Shown here in pieces: positions 17,554 to 42,401 of a stretch of DNA of 64,000 nucleotides; within the stretch, counting starts at the first letter, position 1; the number at the start of each line of letters is the position of its first letter. Under the pieces are notes generated by a model. That model searched no databases and was not told the DNA's origin. It worked only from the letters and a program-made list of their open reading frames with translations. Location of the stretch: the IMG/VR virus record IMGVR_UViG_3300034109_000283, positions 1 through 64,000 of that record. One strand, written 5' to 3'. The position numbers were made by a program, and so were the translations under genes. This DNA comes from a virus.

Positions 17554-18654
17554 TTATGCAAATGCTACACCGTTCTGTCCTATGCAATACCATTTACTGT
17601 TTATATATTGCAAGGTGCATCCATCACCTATATCACCGAATGTGATTGTACCTGTTCCTGATGTTTTCCATCCAGCGTTTGTGACTGTGATTACCATGTC
17701 ACCGCCGTCAGCTACCATCATAAATGTTTTGATTAATCCTGCGGTGCCAGCAGCTAATGTTGCTGTGCTAGCACCAGTTGTTGTAAAATAACTAGCCGTT
17801 ACTAATAAATTAGCAGCACTACCACTAGTTAAATTTTCACTACCACTTAAAGTAAGTTGACCAGTAACTGGAACATTTGCTTTTAATTCTATACCGATCG
17901 TTCCTGATGTTACCACTGGGCTACTGGTTACATTCAATGTTGAACTAGAAACCCCTACACTGGTAACTGTGCCACCTGCTAGTGTAGTAGAAACTGTAAC
18001 TTCTCCATTACTTCCACTTAGTAAAATACCAGTACCTGCACTTAACCGGGTTACACCGGTATTAGTAACTGTCATTGTTCCGCTGCTGGTTATTGGACTT
18101 CCTGTAACTTGTATTCCTGTGCCAGGAGTAATACCTACACTTGTAACTGTACCGACACTAGCACCATTGCTTGCCGCTGTTATTCTACCATACGAATCAA
18201 CAGTAAAAGTAGGATATGTATATTGTCCTGCAACTACACCCGTGGTCGTCAAGTCTAATGTTATACTACCTGCTCCGACAATGGGGTTACCTGCGGCTGT
18301 AATTCTTGCATTGCCTGCAGCACCAAAAACACTAATGCTAGTAACTGTTCCGCCACCGTTACCACCGCCACCAGTACTACTAATCGTAACTTGGCCATTG
18401 CTTCCACTTAAAACAACACCAGATCCTGCAACTAAAGAAGTTACTCCTGTGTTGGTTATCGTTACAATACCGGTAGTAGAATTTGCAGATGCAGAAATTC
18501 CTGCACCACTGTTAAAAGTGTTATATGGACTGGCACAAGCAAATAAATTGTTAAAATTTTGCTTTGTTTTGTTGAAGGCATCGTATAAACTGTCGCTGCC
18601 TACGGATTCATTGGGTAATCCTACATTAATTACTTGTTGTCCGGAAATCGCCAT
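17554..18654 (-). CDS. Tail-fibre-like repeat protein
   Basis: A 366-residue Gly/Thr/Ser/Val-rich protein beginning MAISGQQVINVGLPNESVGSD, a start typical of phage fibre or virion-attachment proteins. GTVTSVG occurs three times, and a unit (NTGVTSLVAGSGVVLSGSNG) is duplicated near residues 70 and 200. The C-terminus (GDGCTLQYINSKWYCIGQNG) carries two Cys in a strand-rich cap. It starts with a good GAGGAA ribosome-binding site below a late-type box, in the same direction as the other fibres. Confidence 0.78.
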   Translation of the reverse strand: MAISGQQVINVGLPNESVGSDSLYDAFNKTKQNFNNLFACASPYNTFNSGAGISASANSTTGIVTITNTGVTSLVAGSGVVLSGSNGQVTISSTGGGGNGGGTVTSISVFGAAGNARITAAGNPIVGAGSITLDLTTTGVVAGQYTYPTFTVDSYGRITAASNGASVGTVTSVGITPGTGIQVTGSPITSSGTMTVTNTGVTRLSAGTGILLSGSNGEVTVSTTLAGGTVTSVGVSSSTLNVTSSPVVTSGTIGIELKANVPVTGQLTLSGSENLTSGSAANLLVTASYFTTTGASTATLAAGTAGLIKTFMMVADGGDMVITVTNAGWKTSGTGTITFGDIGDGCTLQYINSKWYCIGQNGVAFA

Positions 18655-23018: not shown

Positions 23019-23300
23019 TTAATCTTTTCTTTGGTCTGCTTGTTCTGCTCTTGACAAACGGTCATAATCAGGCTGTAATCCCAATGCATGACTGACTTTA
23101 ACATCAATTCTTTGTAATTGATTAGTCATGGTATCCACCCGAGCGTCAAGGCCCTTAATAATTCCGCCCATGCCGTTAACACTAGAAGTTACCCCGGCAA
23201 GTATAAATTTTAGTGTTAAAAACACGAAATATCCAGCCCCTAAAGCAGCAGCGATAGGGAATCCCAATTCAGCGATAAGTTTTAGCATGTCCATACGCAT
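23019..23300 (-). CDS. Small membrane protein, paralogue of 22067-22471
   Basis: A 93-residue protein with an N-terminal helix (LIAELGFPIAAALGAGYFVFLTLKFIL) and a heptad-like region (GLDARVDTMTNQLQRIDVKV). Three in-frame ATGs lie close together and none has a clear ribosome-binding site, so the exact start is open. The three genes 22067-23300 form a small membrane-protein cassette beside the curli island. Confidence 0.7.
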   Translation of the reverse strand: MRMDMLKLIAELGFPIAAALGAGYFVFLTLKFILAGVTSSVNGMGGIIKGLDARVDTMTNQLQRIDVKVSHALGLQPDYDRLSRAEQADQRKD

Positions 23301-23346
23301 ATTTATCTAAAAAATAATATATGCGTACACATATACTAAATACCAT

Positions 23347-23718
23347 ATGGACGGTATTGTCATAATGCTATTGCTCCAAATAAAGCATTGGTATGCTGAT
23401 TTTTGGATTCAAACATATCATCAAACGGTTTATAAAGGCGTTTATGGGAATCCTGTGGGTATCAGTCATACATTAGAACATACCATTGGAACAGTTTTAG
23501 CATTGCTGATAGCTAACAGTTTTGTTCCTATATCAGTCTCCGTGATTATCTTACTATCGCTTTTGGATTTTATAATCCACTATCATGTTGATTTTGTCAA
23601 AGTTAAATATGGCATTAAAGACAATAAAACCACAAGATACTGGCGAGAGTTTGGTCTAGACCAACTTGCACACCAGCTTACATACATTTTAATAACCTAC
23701 ATTATAATTAGTCGTTGA
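23347..23718 (+). CDS. DUF3307-like membrane protein
   Basis: A 123-residue multi-helix protein. KHWYADFWIQT and ISHTLEHTIGTVLALLIA carry conserved-type His residues in membrane-helix context, and FGLDQLAHQLTYILITYI another. The His-rich helix pattern resembles DUF3307 membrane proteins known from bacteria and phages. It is the first (+) gene of the island and lies upstream of the csgF control region. Ribosome-binding site not evident; a downstream ATG is possible. Confidence 0.65.
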   Translation: MDGIVIMLLLQIKHWYADFWIQTYHQTVYKGVYGNPVGISHTLEHTIGTVLALLIANSFVPISVSVIILLSLLDFIIHYHVDFVKVKYGIKDNKTTRYWREFGLDQLAHQLTYILITYIIISR

Positions 23719-23719
23719 G

Positions 23720-23776
23720 ATTACTCCCCAGTTTTATATAAATACAAGTATACTAAAAACTAAATTTGGGAGTAAT
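23720..23776 (+). promoter_or_regulatory. Inverted repeat able to mask the csgF ribosome-binding site
   Basis: ATTACTCCC (23720-23728) is the exact complement of GGGAGTAAT (23768-23776), which contains the Shine-Dalgarno sequence just before ATG 23779. The late promoter box 23737-23744 lies between the arms. Read-through RNA would hide the site; RNA started at the late box would lack the masking arm. Confidence 0.65.
23737..23744 (+). promoter_or_regulatory. T4-late-like promoter box TATAAATA for the curli genes
   Basis: Exact TATAAATA followed by C, 34 bases before the csgF-like ATG, with predicted start near 23751. Best-placed late box in the window because of the flanking inverted repeat. 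Confidence 0.65.
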
Positions 23777-23778
23777 TT

Positions 23779-24249
23779 ATGAAAAGAATCCTATTAGGAT
23801 TGTTGTTCATGCCGGTTGTAGCATCTGCACAACTTGTACAACAGTTTAAAAATCCGGCTTTCAATAGCCAGGGTTGGAGCAGCCATGCACTTACGATTGA
23901 TAGTATAGAAAAAAGTCGCAAGGATGCTATAGCTGCCGAGAAAAAGGCTGAGTTAGCAGCATTAGAAGCAGCAGCACAAAATACACCTTTAGCTAGATTT
24001 ATGAATTTGTTCAGCAGCCAAGTGTATGCGCAACTTGCTACTCAATTAAGTAATAATTTATTTCAGAACAAATGTGCTGGAGTAGCCGGGCCTATTCCGG
24101 GTTGTGTCAATCCAACTACCGGACAGTTTCAATTAGACGGCAATACGGTTACATGGGTTAAAACAGATAAAGAAGTAACATTAACTGTTGTTGATGCCAA
24201 AGGTACAATCACAATTGTTAAAGTACCTATAGCAAGTTTTGGATTCTAA
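23779..24249 (+). CDS. csgF: CsgF-like curli assembly factor
   Basis: A 156-residue secreted protein with a signal peptide (MKRILLGLLFMPVVASA). QLVQQFKNPAFNSQGW at the mature N-terminus corresponds to the CsgF segment that inserts in the CsgG pore. A helix with SQVYAQLATQLSNNLF follows, and the C-terminal strands TVTWVKTDKEVTLTVVDAKG end in a VPIASFGF-type tail typical of CsgF. CsgF sits at the outer-membrane CsgG channel and couples curlin secretion to surface nucleation. Length is slightly above the usual ~138. Ribosome-binding site GGGAG lies in a hairpin arm. It is directly followed by csgG. Confidence 0.85.
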   Translation: MKRILLGLLFMPVVASAQLVQQFKNPAFNSQGWSSHALTIDSIEKSRKDAIAAEKKAELAALEAAAQNTPLARFMNLFSSQVYAQLATQLSNNLFQNKCAGVAGPIPGCVNPTTGQFQLDGNTVTWVKTDKEVTLTVVDAKGTITIVKVPIASFGF

Positions 24250-24250
24250 T

Positions 24251-25063
24251 ATGAAATATACTAAAATATTAATTGCGTGTTTATCAGCCTTAGCATTTAC
24301 TGGATGTAGTACTATAAGACCTATGCAGGATTTAGAAAGAACTACGGAACCTAGAATTGCTGAAAATATTAATGAAAGTTTTAAGGATGTTGCAGCGCCT
24401 GCAGGCCCACCAGTTGTAGTGGCTGTGTATGGCTTCAAGGATCTGACAGGACAGCGTAAGCCTAGCACTACACTAAGCAGTTTCAGCAGTGCAGTTACAC
24501 AAGGCGCTGAAAGTTATCTAATTAAGAGTTTACAGGAAGTTGGCAACCGTCAGTGGTTTACTGTAGTTGAGCGTGTTGGTCTAGACAATCTGTTAAAAGA
24601 GCGTCAAATGATCAAACAAACCCGTGAAATCTATGATGGTGCCAATGCTAAGATGTTACCTCCTCTTGCACTAGCCGGAGTTATACTAGAAGGTGGAATC
24701 ATTGATTACAATAGTCATACATTAACAGGCGGTACTGGTGCTCGTTGGTTAGGTATTGGACCATATACACAGTATACCCAAGATTTAGTTGTTATCAGTA
24801 TGCGTTTAGTAAGTGTTCAAACCGGTGAAGTACTAACCACCGTAACCGTTGAAAGAGACCTACTAAGCACCGGAGAAGGTATAACAGCTTTAAGATTTTT
24901 CAATCAAGCAACTAAAGCTTTTGAATTTGACAGTAGCCAAACATACAACGAACCCGGCAACTATGCATTGCGTAGTGCCATAGAAACTGGGGTTGTTGAA
25001 TTGATTCGCAAAGGAGAACGTCAGGGCCTTTGGAAGTACAAAACACCTGACACTAAAAAATAA
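24251..25063 (+). CDS. csgG: CsgG curli secretion channel lipoprotein
   Basis: A 270-residue lipoprotein: signal peptide with lipobox FTGC (Cys19), then the CsgG domain including VVVAVYGFKDLTGQRKP, WFTVVERVGLDNLLKERQ, GGIIDYNSHTLTGGTGARWLGIG and the YTQDLVVISMRLV strand series. Length and order match CsgG, the nonameric outer-membrane pore that exports curlin subunits. The ATG at 24251 is one base after the csgF stop; a TTG 12 bases earlier is less likely. Base composition is phage-like (AT-rich), which argues for long residence in the phage. Confidence 0.95.
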   Translation: MKYTKILIACLSALAFTGCSTIRPMQDLERTTEPRIAENINESFKDVAAPAGPPVVVAVYGFKDLTGQRKPSTTLSSFSSAVTQGAESYLIKSLQEVGNRQWFTVVERVGLDNLLKERQMIKQTREIYDGANAKMLPPLALAGVILEGGIIDYNSHTLTGGTGARWLGIGPYTQYTQDLVVISMRLVSVQTGEVLTTVTVERDLLSTGEGITALRFFNQATKAFEFDSSQTYNEPGNYALRSAIETGVVELIRKGERQGLWKYKTPDTKK

Positions 25064-39292: not shown

Positions 39293-40270
39293 TTAAGTAC
39301 GATTACTGGGGAAAGGCCAGAATCCTTGTGACTCATCAGGATTAACATAGCGATAACGCTCTGGTCTACCTTGTTCACGGTCTCGCTCACCCTTGACATA
39401 ACCTTCTTCGTAGTTATTGCCATCCTCGTCGGTTTCATATCCCCAAGAATCGTATTCTTCACCATTGAATCCATGACTGTAACCATCATAGAACGGAGTG
39501 CTACCAGTTTTGGGTTCGGTACGCACACTGTTGGCGTTATGCTGTACAGGCTTAGTAAACTCAACCTCATCTTTAGCATCACGCTCAACTTCACCGATAA
39601 CCTCGTAACGGCAAGTACGACCCTTAGCATTGTTGTAATCGCTAGGAATGGACACTACGTCAGCAGGGTCAATCTTAACGATAACAGTACGATCACCACT
39701 AAAACTCTGTAGATAACTATGGCTACAGAAGTGCAGACCTGCCGAGCAAGTATTGTCACGGTTGTCATCAACCATGTTGCGTTCCATTTCTACAACACGA
39801 CCAATGCTGTTGTCCATAGTGCCAGTATGACAATCAGTATAGTCACCACGCACACGCTTGTATGCGAGGAAGTGACCATCGGGAGTAATCGGCAGACTGT
39901 TCTTTTCTAAGAAGCCATAGAGTTCATCAACGGCTCGCTTGCTAGGATTACGCATGAGGTTGTTCATAAACTGAACCATTGGTTCAATGTCAAAGCCTTC
40001 TTCAAGCATACTTACAATGCGAGTAGCCAAAGCATTGTGGAATGCCTGACCACGCCAAAACATTTCACCGTCAACAACACTAACATTGCCGCGGCTGTAG
40101 TTAACAAGAACCTTAGTAGGGTTGATCAATTCCTTGACACTACCCCAATCACCAGCCTTAATAGCCTCTACGACCTTGTTATAGGTCATGTGTGTTTTGT
40201 TGATGGTATGCGGTTCACCATCAATAACGATAACAACATTATCACCTTGGAGAATAAACGGATAACTCAT
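39293..40270 (-). CDS. rIIB: rIIB-like protein
   Basis: A 325-residue protein from ATG 40270 (T4 rIIB is about 312). ITPDGHFLAYKRVRGDYTDCHTGTMDNSIG, HFCSHSYL and a DPADVVSIPSDYNNAKGRTCRYEVI block are the rIIB core. The C-terminal ~90 residues are acidic and Gly/Tyr-rich, ending in a PFPSNRT tail. In T4, rIIA and rIIB act at the membrane in lysis inhibition and exclusion of superinfecting or prophage-linked functions. It directly follows rIIA and ends at a strong terminator. Confidence 0.9.
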   Translation of the reverse strand: MSYPFILQGDNVVIVIDGEPHTINKTHMTYNKVVEAIKAGDWGSVKELINPTKVLVNYSRGNVSVVDGEMFWRGQAFHNALATRIVSMLEEGFDIEPMVQFMNNLMRNPSKRAVDELYGFLEKNSLPITPDGHFLAYKRVRGDYTDCHTGTMDNSIGRVVEMERNMVDDNRDNTCSAGLHFCSHSYLQSFSGDRTVIVKIDPADVVSIPSDYNNAKGRTCRYEVIGEVERDAKDEVEFTKPVQHNANSVRTEPKTGSTPFYDGYSHGFNGEEYDSWGYETDEDGNNYEEGYVKGERDREQGRPERYRYVNPDESQGFWPFPSNRT

Positions 40271-40271
40271 T

Positions 40272-42401
40272 TTAGATTCCTTTAACTTGATCAACCATAT
40301 TAATGTAGTCAACTACATCATCAATTTTAGCATAATAACTAGAAATATGTTGTAGCATTGGGTAACGACTCATAACCTTTTCAACCTTAACCTTGTATTG
40401 TTCAATAAGTTTGTTAGGATCAACATTGTTGACAACGATACCAAACAGTTTGAACAATTGTTCCAAATAGTGTCGCTTGTGGTCATCAACTGCCTCTACA
40501 TCCTTAAACTCAGCAAACAACTTGTAGTACGGGCTGTTTTGATTTAGATTACCGTTAATATACTTGAAATTGTTTTTAATGTCAATGCTGGCTTTGACCA
40601 AACCTAGTACATTACTGGTATCAGTAGCCAACAATTTTTCACGGACATGATCAATCAGATTGACCCAATTCTTTTGCTTACGAACCAATTCAATGTCACT
40701 CTTGCGAACACCATGAACGGTTTGACTAAAGATTTCTGCCCGTTGAAGATTCTCAACAAACATAGCCATGTCACTCATGGGCACTCCAACTGGCTCCCAG
40801 TGATTCATTTCTACATAGTAGAATGTCTTGTTGGCATCGTAGTCACTAGCAGTACCGCCATTAGCCCAAACATACTTGCGTTGATAACGGCTACGCTGGC
40901 GTTCAACAAATTGTAGGATACTTGCCTTACCCCAGTTGCCACTAACATCACGATCCTTCTCAAGCAATTGAGTAGCATACATGGTGTTGATTGGGCTGTG
41001 CAGGTCACGCAAGAAACTACCAACACTCATAGTTTTGGTTTTGTCAAATGGCTCAATCACAATGACCGACTCACTATAAGTATCCATCTTTTTATTACGC
41101 CAGTGATACTTAGCCCGTTCCAACGCACCACGCTTGGTATCAGTAATAACAAAGTGAACATTCATAGACGGTTGAATGCGCCAAGCATGAACATATTTCT
41201 TGGTAACATCATCCAATATGCTGTCGGGCTTAAAATTATTACACTTGTCACTACTACGCTCCTTATGGAAGCCACGGATAGTGATGTTGTACTTTTCCTG
41301 AAGGTCAGTAACCTTCAACATAAAGGGCTTGATAAGATTGTATGATGTAGCATCAGCAAGCGGGAATTTAGAATCAGTCACATACTTAATAGTAGCCGCC
41401 TTGAACAAGGCTTCACTATGGCGCTTGCTAAGATAATCTGCCCGTTGCCAAAAATTATCAATCTTGTCGGCTTCAGTAGCAATATGGATAGCCAGTTGGT
41501 TGTTTAATGCCTCAAGTTTATTTTTGATGGACTGAATTGTAGAAGGAATATAACTCAGACCTTCACGACTTGCTTGGAAGTCAAGTTCACCGATATTAAA
41601 TTCCATAACAAGACCGCAACCAAGAAGACCGCGTAACTCGCCTAGTGTACTATCAGCCGCCGGCACATCAATGGGATACTGAATGTTACCCATGATTGCT
41701 ACACTAGATGAACGGTCACTACCAAGACTATGTACGCCTGGGATAATGTCACGATCCTTGTATTCGGGGTCAAGGAAAGTAAAGTCCTTAGAGCCGTGAA
41801 TTACAGGGCGCAGTTTGAAATACTTGTAGACATACCTTGTCTCAGTACGGAACTTATCAAAGTCCCAGCGGTCGTTTACACTAAACTTGACCTCAACACC
41901 ATTGGGTTCGGTAGTATCATTCTCAGTCATCAATGCGATACTAGGCACACCTTGATCATTGATAAAGGCTGTGTAGATACCCTTGCGACCGTTTTGAATA
42001 GCGGTTACAGTAAAATTATCTGTATAGCTAAACGGAGACTTACTACCAAGACCAAGAGCACCAATAAAATCGTTAGAATCGGTTTTAGTAGATTCAAAAT
42101 AGGTAGTATAGATGTTTGTAACTTGTGCATGGCTAAGTCCTGTACCATAGTCACGAATACTGAACCATGGCTCTAGTTGATTCGGAAGATGAATATCAAA
42201 AGGCAAGTCTGGTTTGCCTGCGGCAACATGACTATCCACAGCATTGCAGGACAATTCACGGATGATAGCGCGGATCTTGTTAGCATACAGACCCGAACTC
42301 AGAATGTTAAAAGCCTTAGCTGAATTGCGAATACGGAACTCGCCAATCTGGCCTACATTACTAAGGATGGCCTCATTTTGAGGCGTGTTATTCAAAATCA
42401 T
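40272..42401 (-). CDS. rIIA: rIIA-like GHKL ATPase
   Basis: A 709-residue protein (T4 rIIA 725). The N-terminus holds a GHKL ATP-binding fold: ELSCNAVDSH (49-58), DYGTGLS (84-90) and GALGLGSKSPF (114-124). The rest is a large helical region without simple motifs. Known as partner of rIIB, membrane-associated. It starts in a TAATG overlap with 42401-42619 and is followed by rIIB after one base. Intact ATPase motifs indicate an active protein. Confidence 0.93.
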   Translation of the reverse strand: MILNNTPQNEAILSNVGQIGEFRIRNSAKAFNILSSGLYANKIRAIIRELSCNAVDSHVAAGKPDLPFDIHLPNQLEPWFSIRDYGTGLSHAQVTNIYTTYFESTKTDSNDFIGALGLGSKSPFSYTDNFTVTAIQNGRKGIYTAFINDQGVPSIALMTENDTTEPNGVEVKFSVNDRWDFDKFRTETRYVYKYFKLRPVIHGSKDFTFLDPEYKDRDIIPGVHSLGSDRSSSVAIMGNIQYPIDVPAADSTLGELRGLLGCGLVMEFNIGELDFQASREGLSYIPSTIQSIKNKLEALNNQLAIHIATEADKIDNFWQRADYLSKRHSEALFKAATIKYVTDSKFPLADATSYNLIKPFMLKVTDLQEKYNITIRGFHKERSSDKCNNFKPDSILDDVTKKYVHAWRIQPSMNVHFVITDTKRGALERAKYHWRNKKMDTYSESVIVIEPFDKTKTMSVGSFLRDLHSPINTMYATQLLEKDRDVSGNWGKASILQFVERQRSRYQRKYVWANGGTASDYDANKTFYYVEMNHWEPVGVPMSDMAMFVENLQRAEIFSQTVHGVRKSDIELVRKQKNWVNLIDHVREKLLATDTSNVLGLVKASIDIKNNFKYINGNLNQNSPYYKLFAEFKDVEAVDDHKRHYLEQLFKLFGIVVNNVDPNKLIEQYKVKVEKVMSRYPMLQHISSYYAKIDDVVDYINMVDQVKGI

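Follow-up and report, generated by a model that had tools for sequence, protein, structure and literature searches.

A late-type promoter box inside a ribosome-site-pairing hairpin ahead of csgF in a phage curli operon, and its likeness to T4 leaders

Leader hairpins of T4 and the phage curli operon

Leader hairpins that sequester the ribosome-binding site (RBS) on RNA started upstream are known from the T4 genes I-TevI, I-TevII, I-TevIII and segB and from mobE of phage Aeh1 (PMC2988022). For T4 e, soc, 49 and I-TevI, the long RNA is masked and the RNA from the late promoter is open (PMC3014915). The leader of csgF described here shares with the first set a late promoter beside or inside an RBS-sequestering hairpin (PMC2988022), and its 5' arm begins upstream of the box, as does that of I-TevII. 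Its design also resembles that of e, soc and 49, in which the Shine–Dalgarno sequence (SD) or AUG is masked on the long RNA and open on RNA from the adjacent upstream late promoter (PMC3014915). However, the T4 and Aeh1 leaders of the first set belong to homing endonucleases and were tested experimentally, whereas ours belongs to a curli secretion gene and is predicted from sequence. Furthermore, in e, soc and 49, the late box contains or precedes the 5' arm, and late RNA loses the arm partly or starts near it, whereas the whole 5' arm of csgF lies upstream of the box and would be entirely lost from the predicted late RNA. The likeness to T4 e and soc drawn in the original prediction is borne out at this level and extends to 49 and the I-Tev genes.

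In the window, i.e., the whole analyzed stretch of 64,000 nucleotides, csgF is followed by genes for CsgG, a curlin-repeat protein, a FecR-domain protein, a further protein and a CHASE2-cyclase (coordinates in Table 1), and csgF and csgG are probably carried on one RNA. The same order (csgF, csgG, curlin-repeat gene, FecR-domain gene or homologue, further gene, adenylate/guanylate cyclase) is found in pelagiphage HTVC008M and methylophage Melnitz (PMC7029224, PMC9004378), but csgF is preceded there by other small genes, unlike the DUF3307 gene found here. A lysis-timing role was proposed for phage curli genes in a text in which the word "hairpin" does not occur (PMC9004378). DUF3307 is the only co-directional gene upstream of csgF in the window, and the genes beyond it lie on the opposite strand.

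The source record is a 108-kb virus contig without a match to named phages at the DNA level, whose DNA polymerase and clamp-loader genes are distantly T4-like. Records of several relatives measure 250–383 kb, and the contig is probably an incomplete piece of a larger genome. The csgG sequence at both ends of one record of 383,411 bases (loci L071 and L073) suggests terminal redundancy and a near-complete genome of that size. Three large relatives encode a late sigma factor of the gp55 type; the factor from L101 was compared and is closest to its counterparts in jumbo T4-like phages, e.g., PA5oct and Phosso. Searches of the probably incomplete 108-kb contig for the gp55 and gp45 families found neither, and 13 records searched for the gp45 sliding clamp gave no phrog_223 match; the clamp may be too divergent or absent from these fragments.

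Table 1. Features of the csgF leader, its surroundings and other late-box sites (SD, Shine–Dalgarno sequence).
Feature	Position	Strand	Remark
5' (masking) arm AGATTACTCCC	23718..23728	+	Exact complement of the 3' arm bar one G-U; shuffled-arm p = 0.007; co-variation in relatives
3' arm GGGAGTAATTT	23768..23778	+	Holds the csgF SD GGGAG (23768–23772)
Late-type promoter box TATAAATA	23737..23744	+	In the loop between the arms; close relatives keep TAAATA before csgF
Predicted late transcription start, A	23750	+	Box +6, from T4 spacing; A preference in 83 late-box sites
csgF	23779..24249	+	Pfam CsgF, 35.6 bits (cut-off 25.8)
csgG	24251..25063	+	Pfam CsgG, 157.6 bits; starts 2 nt past the csgF stop
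DUF3307 gene	23347..23718	+	Pfam DUF3307, 31.5 bits (cut-off 23); nearest source of read-through RNA
Late-type box TAAATA of the DUF3307 gene	23337..23342	+	4 nt ahead of the ATG; near-leaderless arrangement
366-aa gene	17554–18654 (region to 18680)	−	Hairpin round the late box hides the SD
Inverted repeat TACGCATAT/ATATGCGTA	23287–23327	−	Round a TAAATA 5 nt ahead of an ATG
Gene with its start codon inside an arm of TACGCATAT/ATATGCGTA	23019–23300	−
rIIA and rIIB homologues	39293–42401	−	Strong matches
Genes of relatives for HNH/homing endonucleases and two head-tail adaptors	L125:17881-18612, L140:15069-15542, L140:14168-14671, L141:16684-17067, L133:2943-4073, L148:7795-8952		Strong hairpins flanking the late box
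Near-leaderless ATGs of the window	4755, 5485, 6720, 23347, 28975	+	Also at loci L106–L150
Near-leaderless ATGs of the window	33944, 51065	−

The csgF leader and its co-variation among relatives

Two 9-mers, ATTACTCCC (23720–23728) and GGGAGTAAT (23768–23776), had been predicted to pair across a late-type box, the second including the csgF RBS. We found them to be exact reverse complements at these places, and the complementarity extends to an 11-bp stem with one G-U pair and to a 5-bp inner helix. The csgF ATG stands 6 nt after the SD, and the box lies in the loop. The 5' arm and the DUF3307 stop codon TGA (23716–23718) share one base, at which the arm begins and the codon ends. The observation of a late-type box inside an SD-pairing hairpin before csgF is confirmed.

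The leader folds with −16.0 kcal/mol and the part after the box alone with −0.8 kcal/mol. Shuffled left arms averaged −8.0 kcal/mol (p = 0.007), and when left arms of the 82 remaining late-box sites with an SD were put in its place, none matched the pairing of the leader's own arm. The box sequence by itself is not enriched (seven occurrences in the window versus 6.2 expected), and raw counts are uninformative. T4 spacing, together with the preference for A at box +6 over 83 late-box sites, places the predicted late start at A23750, one base from the 23751 given earlier. Masking of the RBS in read-through RNA and loss of the masking arm from late RNA had both been proposed, and predicted folding agrees with both: here the SD is paired with a probability of 1.00 in read-through RNA and of 0.41 in the predicted late RNA.

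To compare relatives, we gathered csgF leaders from about 90 loci in IMG/VR and analyzed 51 distinct box-bearing leaders, in which TAAATA starts 21–48 nt ahead of the csgF ATG; the DUF3307 gene precedes csgF in 40 of the 51 loci. Left arms were exchanged between loci, and the pairing energies of own and permuted arms were compared. Own arms reached a mean of −12.4 kcal/mol versus −8.6 kcal/mol (sd 0.33) for permuted ones (Z −11.5), and the 19 least similar loci gave Z −6.5. A symmetric helix score agreed (15.7 for own arms versus 12.7, sd 0.35). Conservation of the arms, as originally expected, thus holds for the pairing but not for the letters, which vary among relatives while complementarity is retained. 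Examples are TCTAGATTCTAT/ATAGGATCTAGA in L074, CTCCCGG/CCGGGAG in L040 and CGCTCC/GGAGCG in L044, and a change on both sides turns the ATTAC/GTAAT of the window into ATAAC/GTTAT in L063 and L054. Over the 51 loci, predicted SD pairing dropped from 0.72 in read-through RNA to 0.35 in the RNA expected from the late start (p = 1e-7); with foreign in place of own arms, it was 0.61 (p = 0.003). As close relatives keep a late-type box ahead of csgF and the arms co-vary, csgF appears fitted to the gene control of the phage, in line with the adaptation of the curli genes suggested earlier.

About a third of the csgF leaders lack excess pairing. The stem is absent in L002, which has a divergent neighbor, and in L004, which has a terminator-like hairpin upstream; both are without a co-directional upstream transcript, in line with a masking role. 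Over all loci, hairpin strength showed no relation to co-directional upstream gene runs (p = 0.44), and upstream gene direction did not predict the hairpin; the csgF of the window was misfiled as divergent in this comparison, as the crude gene caller had missed DUF3307. A separate observation concerns an element resembling TTTAAT, TTAACT or ATAACT: in 28 of the 51 csgF leaders, it stands at a constant distance of about 22 nt upstream of TAAATA, and it sometimes coincides with the 5' arm. A role of this TTAA element at −22 as a −35-like element of late promoters in general was rejected, as the element is csgF-specific: among other late-box sites, it was present in only 6 of 83 and in 2 of 91.

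Candidate functions of the stem

The hairpin is genuine and under selection; its kind is known, and its place, the phage curli operon, is new and informative. We consider it likely that it gives csgF a T4-style self-masking leader, which would tie translation of the curli operon to its own late-type promoter. RNA entering from upstream would carry both arms, and the 11-bp stem round the late box would bury the SD, so that ribosomes would start poorly on csgF. RNA started from the box would lack the 5' arm, leaving the SD mostly free and csgF translated.

The same inverted repeat could act as DNA, namely as an operator round the late box that is bound by a dimeric repressor or activator, with RNA folding being incidental. 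I-TevI does bind an operator over its own late promoter and represses it (PMC2988022), and boxes of genes without an SD leader are also flanked by arms, e.g., that of DUF3307 (Z −5.8 sense, −5.4 antisense). As an inverted repeat is present on both strands while G-U pairs count in RNA of one sense only, we compared sense and antisense folding. The antisense excess was also strong (Z −8.7), as any inverted repeat must show. However, the sense excess surpassed it beyond permutation (p = 0.0007 for 51 loci; p = 0.001 for the 40 with DUF3307); among the 19 least similar loci, the bias did not reach significance (p = 0.11). These energies were used in place of GU and AC counts in ungapped helices, which pointed in the expected direction (38 versus 25, null 22.7 versus 19.7) but are confounded by internal loops. 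An operator should moreover keep its letters, whereas those of the arms change from relative to relative. The loop length is variable as well, and the SD lies under the 3' arm. We therefore regard the operator as unlikely; the sense bias and the predicted SD pairing favor masking of the SD in RNA.

Translational coupling is a minor alternative for the window and appears quite improbable as well. A ribosome terminating at the DUF3307 stop, which overlaps the 5' arm and stands 20 nt from the box, might open the stem, and csgF would then be translated from DUF3307 RNA too. In most relatives, however, the stop lies 27–49 nt before the box, so coupling is not the conserved function, and the retention of a strong separate late-type box also speaks against it. 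An element that terminates, processes or stabilizes the DUF3307 RNA would fit a stable stem immediately 3' of a stop codon, but we deem it very improbable: a scan of the + strand here found no terminator-like site, the stem is followed by ATGAAAAG in place of a run of T, the csgF SD forms the 3' arm, and an Rfam search returned no family match. A chance inverted repeat in AT-rich DNA is hardly credible even though short ones are common in the window (80 perfect 9-mer seeds with loops ≤60 nt), given the shuffles, the lack of a better foreign arm and the co-variation over relatives; at the level of the csgF family, chance is already refuted by the swap test.

For the self-masking leader, the timing may need rewording. 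The original prediction had the curli genes silent early and switched on late; this order in time is the weakest part of the model, and early read-through is uncertain here. DUF3307 carries a late-type box of its own, 4 nt ahead of the ATG, and is preceded by genes on the opposite strand. The masked RNA may therefore itself be late, and "silent early, on late" may really mean masked on DUF3307 read-through RNA and open on its own RNA. Most relatives have long co-directional gene runs upstream of csgF, which make early read-through plausible there.

Ideas published on phage curli genes concern lysis timing and the capture of sibling cells. A late-type promoter and a masked leader kept across many diverged phages would mean that the phage needs CsgF and CsgG, but not from read-through RNA, and suggest that the curli operon is wired into phage development; the leader design predicts when in development a curli effect should be looked for. 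By a culture-free comparative test, it would also bring jumbo T4-like phages under the leader-hairpin mechanism of T4. The window further encodes rIIA and rIIB homologues (T4-type lysis inhibition), which are relevant to the proposed role in lysis timing.

Late boxes elsewhere in the clade

Pairing round late boxes was also examined for other genes. TAAATA sites without a following ATG, taken as controls, showed no pairing excess (Z −1.0). Late-box genes with an SD leader in five clade genomes gave Z values of −3.9, −1.6, −2.4, −3.9 and −3.5, each including the genome's own csgF, against +0.2 to −2.0 for controls. The Z value of a group of other leadered genes was dropped as independent support, as the group still contained csgF leaders. 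HTVC008M late-box genes had no excess pairing. Run on T4, the screen placed I-TevII at the top and missed e and soc, in which the 5' arm is within or downstream of the box; T4 control sites also gave Z −4.8, and T4 was therefore used for named genes only.

The best hairpins belong to the 366-aa gene of the window, several genes for HNH/homing endonucleases and two for head-tail adaptors, the endonucleases recalling the homing endonucleases with such leaders in T4 and Aeh1 (PMC2988022). That of the 366-aa gene, which has no PHROG match, is stronger than that of csgF (dG about −22 kcal/mol). It is conceivable, though we advance it only tentatively, that this jumbo T4-like clade places late boxes in translation-masking hairpins as a general rule and not as a rare device, for curli, head-tail adaptor and homing-endonuclease genes, beside a second, leaderless class of late genes whose RNA begins on the ATG. 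If both were true, the choice of transcription start would be a main translation switch of the genome.

Near-leaderless late genes were observed as 74 long ORFs in the five clade genomes with TAAATA ending 4–8 nt before the ATG; the reverse word TATTTA, taken as a control, gave six. The spacing peaks sharply at 5 nt (35 cases), at which T4 spacing would start transcription on the A of the ATG. In the window, this spacing is also seen on the minus strand inside the inverted repeat TACGCATAT/ATATGCGTA, one arm of which contains a start codon. Near-leaderless sites number one in the 121 kb of T4 and 14 in the 148 kb of HTVC008M.
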